A stretch of 64,000 bases of DNA from Vogesella oryzae. Lineage in GTDB: Bacteria > Pseudomonadota > Gammaproteobacteria > Burkholderiales > Chromobacteriaceae. The stretch lies in NCBI RefSeq assembly GCF_902829295.1, contig NZ_CADEPL010000003.1, positions 1-64,000 on the forward strand, in the 5' to 3' direction. Below the pieces are notes generated by a model. The model was not told the DNA's origin and ran no database searches. It saw only the letters and a program-made list of their open reading frames with translations. Below, piece by piece: positions 1 through 64,000 of this stretch; positions within the stretch are counted from its first letter, which is position 1, and each line of letters starts with the position of its first letter. The translations under genes were made by a program, and so were the position numbers.

Positions 1-967
1 GCTGGTTGGGGAGCGGGCTGGCCAACGTCTGCGCCAGCTTCAGCCGCCGTGCCAGCGCGGCATAGCGTCCGGGCAGCAGCCAGCCGACGCGGTAGCCCGG
101 CGCCAGCGATTTGGAAAAGGTACCGCACAACAGCACGCGGCCAGTGGAGTCCGCCGCGCGCAGCGGCTGCGGCATCGGCTCGGCAAATCCCAGCTGGCGG
201 TAGGCATCGTCTTCGATCACCGCCACATCGTACTGTGCGGCCAGCGCCAGCAACTGCTGGCGGACCGCTTCCGGCAGGCAGCGGCCGTGCGGATGGGCGA
301 AGGCGGTCATCAGCGCGATGCCCTGCACCTCGCCACGCGCCAGCGCGGCCGCCAGCGGCGCGGTATCCAGCGTGCCGTCCGCCGCCGGCAACAAGGGCAG
401 CAATGCGACGCCGTGTTCGGCCAGCCAGCCGAGCAGGCCGGGAAACGCCGGCAGCAGCACTGCCAGGGTTGGCCGCACCACGCCGTGGGTGACGGCGGCA
501 ATCGCCAGCGACAGCGCCTCCATGCCGCCGCAGGTGATCAGCACTTCGTCGGCGTGCAGCTCCCAGCCTTCGGCGGCGGCCTGGCGCGCCAGCTGGCGGC
601 GCAGCGCCGGCAGCCCGGCCAGTGCCGGCTCGGCCAGCGCCTCGTGGTAGTGGCGCATGGCGCCGACAAAGGCATGGCTCAGCGCGCGGGTGTCGTACAA
701 GGCGGGATGGGGGAACGGCGCGCCCAGCGGCGCGATCAGCTGGTCGCCGGCGGTGCCGGCATCGGCGGCCACCACATAGCCGCGCCGCGGCTGCGCCTCG
801 GCATACCCCAGCCGTTCCAGTTCGTAATAGGCGCGACGGGCGGTATTGAGGCTGACGGCATGCTGCTGCATCAGCTGTCGCAGCGAAGGCAGCGCGTCGC
901 CACGGCGATAGTCGCCGCGTTCGATCGCGCTGATGATGCCCTGCACCAGTTGGCCGTATTTGCTCAC
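1..967 (-). CDS. MocR/PdxR-type GntR regulator with aminotransferase domain (3' end cut off)
   Basis: The reading frame opens at a GTG (965-967) and runs off the left edge of the window, so the C-terminus is missing. The first ~70 residues (starting VSKYGQLVQGIIS) form a GntR winged helix-turn-helix. From about residue 90 the protein is a fold-type I aminotransferase, with ITCGGMEALSLAI and, near residue 285, GTFSKSLAPGYRVGW, which holds the PLP-binding lysine. MocR-family proteins are PLP-dependent transcription factors rather than enzymes. Their targets usually lie next door, but the left neighbour is outside the window and the target cannot be named. Confidence 0.85.
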   Translation of the reverse strand, partial: MSKYGQLVQGIISAIERGDYRRGDALPSLRQLMQQHAVSLNTARRAYYELERLGYAEAQPRRGYVVAADAGTAGDQLIAPLGAPFPHPALYDTRALSHAFVGAMRHYHEALAEPALAGLPALRRQLARQAAAEGWELHADEVLITCGGMEALSLAIAAVTHGVVRPTLAVLLPAFPGLLGWLAEHGVALLPLLPAADGTLDTAPLAAALARGEVQGIALMTAFAHPHGRCLPEAVRQQLLALAAQYDVAVIEDDAYRQLGFAEPMPQPLRAADSTGRVLLCGTFSKSLAPGYRVGWLLPGRYAALARRLKLAQTLASPLPNQ

Positions 968-1024
968 ATGCCGTCTTTCACCCGAAAACGGCGATTATGC
1001 CGTGTGCACGCCTGGGCCGGCGAA

Positions 1025-1810
1025 TCAGCGTTGCGGCCGCTCCAGCGCGGCATAGACATCCTGCCGCGTGCTCGCCTGCATGGCGGCGAATTCGCCGCTG
1101 TCGCGCATTTTCTTCAGCTCGCGGTTGAAGCGCGCCACCAGCTCGGCGGCGTGCGGGTTCTTGCGCGAGATGGCGACACACAGCGGCGTGCTCCAGTAGG
1201 CGCGATCCTGCGGCACGATGCGCGCGGCCTGCTCCGGCAACAGGTTGAGCCGGGTGGTCAGCATGCCGGCCTCGCTTTCCATCGGAAACAGGTCGATGCG
1301 GCCGGCGGCCAGCTTGCGCAGGTTGCTGACGTCGTCGCCGGCCACGTCCACGTGCAGCACGCCTTTTTCCTGCAACTGGGTGAAGGTGTCGGAGTAGAAA
1401 TTGCCGGCGGTGATGCCGAAGCGCTGGCCGGACAGGTCGGCCAGCGTCTGCCACGGGTAGTTCTCGCCGCGGCGCTGGAACAGCACCATGCGGAACGGCA
1501 GCACTTCATCGCTAAACAGCAGATCGCGCTGGCGATCCTCGTTCGGCGTCCAGCCGATACTGCCATCCACGTCGCCGTTGCGCGCCAGCTGGATGGCGCG
1601 GTTGTTCGGGTACCAGCTGTAGCGCACCTTGACGTTGCCACGGCGGAATACCTCGGTCACCAGCCGCGACATGATGCCGCCGTAGCGCAGCTTCTCGCCC
1701 AGCAACGGCAAATACTCCTGGTTGGATAAATGCACACTCAGCGGAACGTCGGTCGCCAGCGCCCAGCACGGCAGCAGCCACAGCCAGCCCAGTAAAAGCT
1801 TGCGCCACAT
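1025..1810 (-). CDS. periplasmic substrate-binding protein, SBP_bac_3 type (paralogue A)
   Basis: A 261-residue protein with a clear signal peptide (MWRKLLLGWLWLLPCWALA) and the two-lobed fold of family 3 solute-binding proteins. The start at 1810 is chosen because AGGGAAG lies just upstream; the open frame extends 19 codons further without an RBS. It is very similar to the protein at 4849-5670: both share RYGG/AQGGIMS, VFRRGNV, YSWYPNNRA, LGWTPNE/IGWTPNE and ITAGNFYSD. There is no ABC permease or ATPase nearby, so it may act as an orphan sensor-type binding protein. The ligand is unknown. Confidence 0.85.
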   Translation of the reverse strand: MWRKLLLGWLWLLPCWALATDVPLSVHLSNQEYLPLLGEKLRYGGIMSRLVTEVFRRGNVKVRYSWYPNNRAIQLARNGDVDGSIGWTPNEDRQRDLLFSDEVLPFRMVLFQRRGENYPWQTLADLSGQRFGITAGNFYSDTFTQLQEKGVLHVDVAGDDVSNLRKLAAGRIDLFPMESEAGMLTTRLNLLPEQAARIVPQDRAYWSTPLCVAISRKNPHAAELVARFNRELKKMRDSGEFAAMQASTRQDVYAALERPQR

Positions 1811-1901
1811 AATGCTTCCCTTGTTACCCCTTCTTTTTATAGTCGTAGCGTAAACCGTTACCGGCACGGGCGATATGCGGCAAGCGGCCAGTTGCGGCCA
1901 A

Positions 1902-62445: not shown

Positions 62446-62467
62446 CATTGCTGCCGGCAAGCCGCTA

Positions 62468-63664
62468 TCAGCGCTTGCGCAGCTCCGGCAGCAGCGCGGC
62501 GACGATGCCGGCCAGCGGGATCCACGCGCACCACTGGTACACCGTCTGCAGCCCGACGTGGTCGGCCAGCTGGCCGATCAGCGCGGCGCCGAGGCCGGCG
62601 ACGCCGAAGGCGAGGCCGAAGAACAGGCCGGAGATCATGCCCACCCGCTGCGGCAGCAGCTCCTGCGCATACACCAGGATGGCGGAGAACGCCGACGACA
62701 GGATCAGCCCGATCAGCACCACCAGCGCCAGCGTGGCGTGCAGGCCTACATAAGGCAGCGCCAGCGCGAACGGCGCACTGCCGAAAATCGAGAACCAGAT
62801 CACGCGGCGACGGCCGATGCGGTCGCCCAGCGGCCCGCCCAATATCGTGCCGCTGGCCACCGCCAGCAGGAAGGCGAACAGGTACAGCTGCGCATCGGCA
62901 GTGGACACGGCGAAGCGCTCGATCAGGTAGAAGGTGAAGTAGCTGTGCAGGCAGGCCATATAGGTGTACTTGGTCACCACCAGCGCCATCAGCACCGCCA
63001 GCGTGTGGCGGGTCTGCCGCGGCGACAGCGGGTTGGCCGCCGGCGGCGCGGCGCGGCGGGCGGCATGGCCCAGCTCGGCCTGATACCAGTTACCGACCTG
63101 CCACAGCACCAGCATCGCCAGCAGGGTCAGGCTGCCGAACCACGCCACGCTGTGCTGGCCGTTGGGCAGGATGATCAGCATCGCCAGCAGCGGACCGGCG
63201 GCGGTGCCGCCATTGCCGCCGACCTGGAACAGCGACTGCGCCAGGCCCTTGTGCCCGGCAGCGGCGAGGCGCACCACGCGCGACGATTCCGGATGGAAGA
63301 TCGACGAGCCGGTGCCGACCAGCGCTGCGGCCAGCAACAGCCAGCCGAATTGCGTCGCCTGCGACAGCAGCAACAGGCCGCACAGGGTGCTGGCCATGCC
63401 CAGCACCAGCGCGCGTGGCTGCGGTTTGCGGTCGGTCACGATGCCGACCAGCGGCTGCAGCAGCGAGGCGGTGCACTGGTAGGTGAGGGTCATCAGCCCG
63501 ATCTGGGCAAAGCTCAGCGCGTAGTTGCCTTTCAGCAGCGGGTAGATGGCGAGAATCAGCGACTGCATCAGGTCATTGAGAAAATGCGCGACGCTGACGG
63601 CGCCGATCACCCGCCAGCGCGGGCTGCTGGCCGGCGTGGCAGGGGCGGACAGGGTGGCTTGCAT
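62468..63664 (-). CDS. fsr: Fsr-like MFS exporter
   Basis: A 398-residue MFS protein resembling the fosmidomycin-resistance exporter. VIGAVSVAHFLNDLMQSLILAIYPLLKGNYALSFAQIGLMTLTYQCTASLLQPLVG is the family opening; ALVGTGSSIFHPESSRVVRLAAAGHKGLAQSLFQVGGNGGTAAGPLLA is diagnostic. Twelve helices. Divergent from an AraC-type regulator that may control it. Confidence 0.9.
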   Translation of the reverse strand: MQATLSAPATPASSPRWRVIGAVSVAHFLNDLMQSLILAIYPLLKGNYALSFAQIGLMTLTYQCTASLLQPLVGIVTDRKPQPRALVLGMASTLCGLLLLSQATQFGWLLLAAALVGTGSSIFHPESSRVVRLAAAGHKGLAQSLFQVGGNGGTAAGPLLAMLIILPNGQHSVAWFGSLTLLAMLVLWQVGNWYQAELGHAARRAAPPAANPLSPRQTRHTLAVLMALVVTKYTYMACLHSYFTFYLIERFAVSTADAQLYLFAFLLAVASGTILGGPLGDRIGRRRVIWFSIFGSAPFALALPYVGLHATLALVVLIGLILSSAFSAILVYAQELLPQRVGMISGLFFGLAFGVAGLGAALIGQLADHVGLQTVYQWCAWIPLAGIVAALLPELRKR

Positions 63665-63757
63665 GGAGCGCTCCTTGTGGGTGGTGGTAGCCGCATCCTA
63701 GAATGTTGGCATCTGCCAGTCTCACGCGCACATGGCAGCAACTATCGAGAAAACGGC

Positions 63758-64000
63758 ATGCACGCAGTCGATATCGAAATGATCGAGCCGCCGCAGCTCA
63801 GCAGCGACACGCTGATGATCGGCAAATCGCAGGATTACCCGGCCGGCCACGCCACCGTGCGCCACAGCCATCCCACCGCGCAGCTGCTGTACGGCATCGC
63901 CGGGGTGATGCGGGTGCTTACCGCGCGCGGGCAGTGGATCGTGCCGCCGACGCGCGCCATCTACATTCCGCCCGGCCACTGGCACGAGGTGCATATGCTC
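63758..64000 (+). CDS. AraC-type regulator, N-terminal cupin part (3' cut off)
   Basis: Eighty-one codons are visible before the window ends. ATVRHSHPTAQLLYGIAGVMRVLTARGQWIVPPTRAIYIPPGHWHEVHM is the cupin sensor typical of AraC regulators that sit beside exporters. The helix-turn-helix part must lie beyond the edge. Divergent from the Fsr-like gene with a 93-bp gap. Confidence 0.8.
   Translation, partial: MHAVDIEMIEPPQLSSDTLMIGKSQDYPAGHATVRHSHPTAQLLYGIAGVMRVLTARGQWIVPPTRAIYIPPGHWHEVHML

Follow-up and report, generated by a model that had tools for sequence, protein, structure and literature searches.

What is the role of a nine-base word that recurs on both strands throughout a 64,000-nucleotide stretch of the Vogesella oryzae genome (RefSeq assembly GCF_902829295.1, contig NZ_CADEPL010000003.1, positions 1 to 64,000; hereafter the window)? 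A preliminary description of this stretch had noticed the abundance of the word, GCGGCCAAC, and had put forward three options, an undescribed uptake dialect, a chromosome-organising site or a mobile terminator family. Our analyses favour the first of these. By analogy with known uptake words, GCGGCCAAC very probably acts as an uptake signal, with a core of its own, CGGCCAAC, by which a type IV pilus competence system recognises self-DNA. Such a role fits the sharp copies found across the genus, their permissive reading frames, the inverted pairs at gene ends, their scarcity in low-GC stretches, their conservation between species and the existence of dialects in sister genera of the same family, the Chromobacteriaceae (order Neisseriales).

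Abundance, sharpness and range of the word

The excess reported in the preliminary description stands, and its count of nearly 70 gives way to 76 exact copies in the window, compared with a mean of 2.26 and a maximum of 6 in 100 dinucleotide-preserving shuffles and with an order-3 Markov expectation of 3.33. When words of 8 to 10 bases were ranked by their excess in the window, GCGGCCAAC and words overlapping it came out on top. The whole V. oryzae genome (G000; 3,415,129 bases in 58 contigs) harbours 1734 forward and 1756 reverse copies, 3490 in all, while the reversed word, used as a control, occurs 33 + 46 = 79 times. A larger sample of this genome, consisting of the window and 20 further stretches (436,485 bases), contains 443 copies against 20.1 predicted by an order-3 Markov model limited to these sequences; in the part of the genome tested, the counts are thus far from the third-order expectation that the preliminary description had named as grounds for abandoning its proposal. 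We consider the word sharp because no 9-mer with a single mismatch to it is enriched more than about fourfold in this sample.

The longer consensus TGCGGCCAACCTT given in the preliminary description was borne out as a preference, and it extends further, to tGCGGCCAACcTTg. The base directly upstream is T in 65% of all copies of the larger sample and in 81% of the unpaired intergenic copies of G000 and G001. In the set of unpaired intergenic copies used for flank preferences (n = 167, from G000 and the complete Vogesella genome G001), the downstream bases C, T, T and G have frequencies of 0.68, 0.56, 0.57 and 0.42, respectively. As this CTTG preference is present in intergenic copies, a codon effect is not its cause. 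Flanks beyond about 13 bases carry little information in the larger sample, in which no AT-rich flank tracts were seen around the word.

We counted GCGGCCAAC in 37 of 61 genomes of the family and, through a sample of the order, also in G393. All 13 Vogesella genomes have between 2312 and 3490 copies, compared with 77 to 269 in 24 genomes from nine other genera of the family, and numbers are also low in 24 genomes elsewhere in the order. In the 399-genome order sample, high counts were found only in its six Vogesella members, with a maximum of 254 outside the family. The same restriction appears in a scan with the V. oryzae AroB protein. Its best hit was V. indigofera DSM 3303, to which the Vogesella genome G006 is identical over 3399 bases; 14 copies fall within the 21 kb of this locus, compared with 45 in the 1.50 Mb of the 79 remaining loci.

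Of 720 word sites aligned across Vogesella species, 598 retain the word (0.83), compared with 0.44 of 128,837 control 9-mers of equal GC, both counts using ordered species pairs, so that each pair is counted twice and the counts are not independent. Four low-GC stretches (GC 0.51 to 0.55; 80 kb), chosen after their GC and counts had been seen, contain 12 copies, or 0.15 per kb, compared with 1.05 per kb in the remaining sequence examined of G000 and 0.81 per kb in that of G001. Ten proteins scanned from these stretches include members of polysaccharide-synthesis, PglZ and N6-methylase families, as well as an ABC transporter and a nicotinate phosphoribosyltransferase; for two, no family was found. 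L051 (G000:C6:1-20000; GC 0.508) carries polysaccharide-synthesis genes and 4 word copies in 20 kb. L192 and L194, from G001, are also of low GC and have 1 and 4 copies; the PglZ protein and the N6-DNA methylase encoded there give them the appearance of defence islands.

A dense word might also arise where DNA modification or a mutation bias protects or favours it, for instance as a restriction site or through methyl-directed repair. GCGGCCAAC does contain GGCC, and HIP1, a cyanobacterial repeat, reaches a similar density. The word is non-palindromic, however, its single-base variants show little enrichment, and a mutation bias leaves both the inverted pairs at gene ends and the low density in the four low-GC stretches unexplained. 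We therefore regard a HIP1-like origin as very unlikely.

Genes, gene ends and inverted pairs

Genes were called with a simple codon-score script, not a trained gene finder. By these calls, 285 of the 443 copies in the larger G000 sample lie in predicted genes, 156 lie between genes and 2 straddle a boundary, with densities of 0.79 per kb in genes and 2.01 per kb between genes; in the window, 47 of the 76 copies are genic. The preliminary description would have given up the uptake proposal had the enrichment been confined to terminators, and the genic copies show that it is not. It had also read the in-gene copies as LAA, VGR or AAN, and these frames do dominate (AAN 107, LAA 84, VGR 47). Shuffling of synonymous codons within G000 genes left 35.6 copies (largest value 48 in 200 shuffles) instead of the real 285. 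The corresponding figures are 187 coding copies versus 24.7 after shuffling in G001 and, for the TT and CT words of sister genera described below, 82 versus 2.7 in G014 and 96 versus 6.8 in G024.

Among copies separated by gaps of up to 60 bases, hereafter close pairs, 49 are inverted and 7 are on the same strand in the larger sample, compared with a random expectation of 26.6 for all kinds together. Fifteen inverted pairs lie in spacers between convergent genes, 22 in codirectional spacers, 9 inside predicted genes and 3 at edges; none of the 37 placed intergenic pairs is between divergent genes, and the same is true of the placed inverted pairs of G001, G014 and G024.

This distribution could suggest a transcription terminator, or a mobile hairpin family spread by copying. 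The inverted pairs are indeed mostly near stop codons, and copy density is 5.72 per kb in convergent spacers and 1.99 in codirectional spacers compared with 1.02 in divergent ones. An intrinsic terminator consists of a hairpin and a T-run outside genes, whereas most copies of the word are genic, 332 of the 443 are outside any close pair, and the scarcity of information past about 13 bases leaves no longer surrounding element. The preliminary description was right about inverted pairs between genes and overstated the T-runs that follow them: these runs (at least four T within 20 bases, for the window pairs) are found at 3 of the 9 window pairs and, in the larger sample, at 8 of 52 gene ends. 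With so few T-runs, termination can be no more than a secondary role. Such a role beside the main function is likely, and a terminator or hairpin family as the main explanation is very unlikely.

An equally poor candidate is a chromosome-organising site, Chi-like or translocase-orienting and read along replichores, which would account for the thousands of genomic copies, but in 20 stretches of G001 the word shows no such strand bias, its copies dividing 136 to 148 between the G-rich strand and the opposite one (p 0.51), while the control GGGNAGGG, a consensus of the FtsK-orienting polar sequences (KOPS), is strand-polar in the same stretches (47 versus 11); the enrichment in inverted pairs is also unsuited to a polar site, and the site would have to come in dialects and to be present in only one of the ten genomes of a genus (g6, see below).

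In the window, where positions are those of exact copies and gene placement follows the rough gene calls, there are nine inverted pairs in all. The eight named in the preliminary description were all recovered, with starts off by 0 to 7 bases. Three are at gene ends, at 8645-8662 and 15165-15182 (gap 0 for both) and at 10705-10725 (gap 3). The pair at 25438-25473 (gap 18) is followed by a T-run, and that at 41557-41581 (gap 7) is past the urocanase gene. In the remaining three the minus-strand copy leads, at 36608-36631 (gap 6), at 44220-44253 (gap 16, with a T-run on the minus-strand side) and at 62410-62439 (gap 12, then a T-run). The ninth, at 4291-4308 (gap 0), is within the predicted gene 4258-4872.

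The lone copies of the window are distributed as follows. Intergenic copies are found on the plus strand at 14025-14033 (with the full consensus), 20082-20090, 21073-21081, 35861-35869, 41679-41687, 41723-41731 and 45559-45567, and on the minus strand at 468-476, 9554-9562, 30442-30450, 37520-37528, 43318-43326 (full consensus) and 56791-56799. Copies in predicted genes most often read as AAN, on the plus strand at 3282-3290, 6647-6655, 8437-8445, 22450-22458, 25086-25094, 29369-29377 (full consensus), 32754-32762, 33422-33430, 39429-39437 (full consensus), 52325-52333, 59537-59545, 61195-61203 and 62101-62109, and on the minus strand at 11971-11979, 15883-15891, 17127-17135, 17190-17198, 27596-27604, 34917-34925, 55252-55260 and 63032-63040. 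The LAA frame is seen at 15752-15760 and 18859-18867 (plus) and at 4623-4631, 21943-21951, 24725-24733, 24923-24931, 28443-28451, 32555-32563, 33658-33666, 39137-39145, 40409-40417 (in the urocanase gene) and 58675-58683 (minus), and the VGR frame at 5152-5160 and 49743-49751 (plus) and at 22534-22542, 22564-22572, 33911-33919, 60098-60106 and 61408-61416 (minus). Predicted genes also contain copies at 1894-1902 (plus) and at 11664-11672, 12308-12316, 18146-18154 and 35546-35554 (minus). Elsewhere in the window, ARAGORN reported a 97-base tRNA-Ile(gat) at 48141-48237, within a long predicted minus-strand gene (47178-51032); an Rfam search of the window gave no match, and the tRNA call is probably false.

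Dialects on a common core

Word discovery in 20-kb stretches of the sister genera revealed TTCGGCCAAC in genera g2, g3, g5, g6 and g10 and CTCGGCCAAC in g4, and nothing comparable in g7 (Chromobacterium) and g8 (Paludibacterium), the latter two genera being named from one member each. Together with the Vogesella form TGCGGCCAAC, hereafter TG, the words TTCGGCCAAC (TT) and CTCGGCCAAC (CT) are dialects on the single core CGGCCAAC, differing in their first bases. Our counts of TT and CT cover all 61 genomes of the family. TT is present in eight genomes altogether, with high numbers in G014 (2168), G021 (1851), G017 (1368), G016 (1245) and G013 (1104), followed by G022 (893) and G023 (579), and a weak signal in G029 (183). 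CT is high in G024 (1940) and G015 (1590), and G023 has 165 copies of it. Vogesella genomes have at most 40 of either word, and the remaining genomes of the family are near background, the highest among them being G027 with 62 TT and 92 CT words (13 and 21 for the reversed-word controls). In genus g6, the word is found in G017 only, one genome out of ten. Outside the family, no genome of the order sample has more than 104 copies of the TT and CT forms combined.

The downstream cTTg preference is common to all dialects (8 to 46 copies each for the TT and CT sets). Exchange of the last base from C to G is more than tenfold over expectation in G014 (18 versus 1.6 expected) and G024 (37 versus 2.8), and not so in Vogesella.

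At one aligned gene site, TGCGGCCAAC in V. indigofera corresponds to TTCGGCCAAC in G017, and the TT word is also present in G014; on the coding strand, the V. indigofera and G017 sequences are GTTGGCCGCAAG and GTTGGCCGAAAG, respectively, which encode the same protein segment, VGRK. Altogether, five TG-to-TT comparisons could be aligned, of which two show the other dialect (this single site in two genomes) and three have no word. The core is kept in 2 of 18 aligned comparisons between TG and word-less genomes; both sets are too small for a statistic.

We considered the g9 word TCAGGGTAAA as a further dialect and rejected it, since it is clustered, its 9-base core occurring 0, 9, 2 and 7 times in four 20-kb stretches, has shared flanks and resembles repeats in a gene family. 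In 20-kb stretches of g9, TCAGGGTAA occurs 7 times in L076, 9 times in L226, twice in L228 and not at all in L225, with partly shared flanks; these are probably repeats within a gene family, or possibly a different signal.

Comparison with known uptake systems and the candidate receptor

Self-DNA uptake words have been described for Pasteurellaceae and Neisseriaceae (PMC7811141). According to Frye et al. (2013), all dialects of the neisserial DNA uptake sequence (DUS) share CTG (positions +6 to +8) and an A further on (+10), no obvious DUS was found in Laribacter, Lutiella, Pseudogulbenkiania or two Chromobacterium genomes, and DUS originated later than the divergence from C. violaceum (PMC3630211). 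GCGGCCAAC resembles DUS in its thousands of sharp copies (over a background of 79), its gene-end inverted pairs and its permissive intragenic copies. Its dialects likewise lie a few bases apart on a constant core, and their hosts belong to the same order, Neisseriales. In contrast, the core of the Vogesella word is CGGCCAAC and not the CTG of the published dialects with its A at +10, in agreement with the preliminary description, which had remarked that known dialects are built on another core. The word also differs in being present in relatives of Chromobacterium, where Frye et al. reported no obvious DUS in the genomes then available to them, and in that no four-cysteine ComP was seen among the Vogesella pilins examined. 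Because the likeness to DUS lies in the kind of properties and does not extend to the sequence, we do not class the word as a DUS and hold that it probably works like one.

A short repeated 9-mer core with weaker flanks is also typical of the uptake signal sequences (USS) of Pasteurellaceae. The USS cores are AAGTGCGGT and ACAAGCGGT. Neither figures among the listed top words of the window, which are mostly GCGGCCAAC and its overlaps, nor does any DUS-type word. Vogesella belongs to another class of bacteria, and its word has another sequence and showed no AT-rich flank tracts in the larger sample. The USS receptor is predicted to be the minor pilin ComN/PpdA (PMC12616744). A third system of comparison is FimT of Legionella, Pseudomonas and Xanthomonas, with which the Chromobacteriaceae share a GspH/FimT-family pilin (PF12019).

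Genes of the competence machinery are present in Vogesella, with DprA (PF02481) in 13 and ComEC (PF03772) in 11 of the 13 genomes. In V. oryzae, a pair of pilin genes adjoins pilMNOPQ-aroK-aroB. It encodes a GspH/FimT-family pilin and a small pilin (L040:9783-10747), the latter with a weak match to ComP_DUS (PF16732; 18.6 bits where the cut-off is 27.3). All 13 Vogesella genomes have the FimT-type pilin with aroB beside it, and the small pilin accompanies it in 12 genomes by direct reading and in G011 by its PF16732 match. None of the 20 FimT loci retrieved from sister genera has an aroB or pilQ match, which led us to discard the idea that their FimT clusters are located at the same place, and several of them are longer minor-pilin clusters. 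As far as tested, the pilin pair beside aroB is thus particular to Vogesella, as is the TG dialect, and the fimT and small-pilin pair seems to have been relocated in the Vogesella lineage. In V. indigofera (G006, L091:1477-1911), the FimT-type pilin has 144 residues, compared with 176-179 in G003, G005, G011 and G012, with an in-frame loss of the stretch between two LVSVP segments.

The DNA-binding motif GRxR is present in the tail of the closest FimT protein in 9 of 10 TT/CT genomes and in 4 of 34 word-less ones (Fisher's p = 9e-6, uncorrected for kinship, with few independent lineages), a count that keeps Vogesella apart and omits four g9 genomes with weak FimT matches and the second FimT copies (GRSK) of four g6 genomes. 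The word-less genomes split into 0 of 9 in g6, 4 of 19 in g7 and 0 of 6 in g8, and in g6 the motif is found in its one word-bearing genome. Vogesella FimT tails lack the canonical GRxR and are shorter and varied, and all 13 domains are basic, with isoelectric points (pI) of 8.8 to 10.0.

Other discriminators were tried and discarded. FimT-type domains are basic in most genomes with or without words (with the exception of G021, pI 6.5), and a FimT match is found in all 61 genomes of the family, although weak in g9. PF16732 matches 39 of 41 genomes, word-less ones included, and is therefore not specific; annotation with this Pfam family does not indicate an uptake-sequence receptor. The strong PF16732 pilins differ between Vogesella groups, V. 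oryzae having a single match of 57 bits, and can therefore not serve as a receptor common to the genus. The other pilin clusters examined also differ between these groups (for PF07963, among the matches listed). The receptor may also be among the Vogesella major pilins. Our guess, a tentative one, is that the word is read not by ComP but by the minor pilin of FimT type, perhaps together with the small pilin encoded next to it.

Several points weigh against uptake as the function of the word, or against this receptor. Control genomes also have ComEC (10 of 14) and DprA (11 of 14), and the ComEC, DprA and pilus families are so widespread that they do not discriminate the word-bearing genomes. 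GRxR is found in none of the 13 Vogesella FimT proteins, and when these are included the association falls to 9 of 23 versus 4 of 34 (p 0.024, again with no correction for kinship). The published DNA binding of FimT is not sequence-specific (PMC8897410), and the Lutiella and Pseudogulbenkiania genera in which Frye et al. (2013) found no obvious DUS are possibly among those compared here (PMC3630211). No four-cysteine DD-region ComP was seen among the Vogesella PF16732-type pilins examined, which represent part of all its pilins. The 12 copies in the low-GC stretches still exceed the 1.75 predicted by the Markov model, and these stretches were selected with knowledge of their counts. A literature search on Vogesella competence returned unrelated titles only, among the matches listed. 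Lastly, we infer both uptake and the drive proposed below from sequence. As to novelty, by title and start of abstract, none of the open-access main texts among the matches listed links the word, its TT dialect or Vogesella to uptake sequences.

If GCGGCCAAC is an uptake signal as we propose, a pilus-borne DNA receptor would bind extracellular DNA better when tGCGGCCAACcTTg is present, and DNA from kin would thereby be preferentially taken up and recombined. Repeated biased import of this type would accumulate and maintain about one copy per kilobase. Such a molecular drive is thought to act likewise for neisserial DUS. In sister genera, where the core CGGCCAAC is combined with other first bases (TT or CT), receptors and words would have diverged as dialects, and at gene ends the inverted pairs would allow the word to supply a stem-loop as well. 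Our confidence is greatest for uptake, lower for the drive and lowest for the receptor.

More speculatively still than for the receptor, the Chromobacteriaceae might possess a separate uptake language, with at least three dialects on CGGCCAAC, read by a FimT-type pilin and not by ComP. Its GRxR tail would have been lost where the words were lost, and in Vogesella, where TG arose, the pilin would have moved beside aroB and acquired a new tail. This would represent a second word family with dialects and with word-less relatives in one genus, as illustrated by G017 and the nine other g6 genomes. If true, it would provide, in environmental hosts, a natural series for tracing uptake specificity through its origin, its switches and its loss, a series that would include a candidate receptor co-varying in part with the words.

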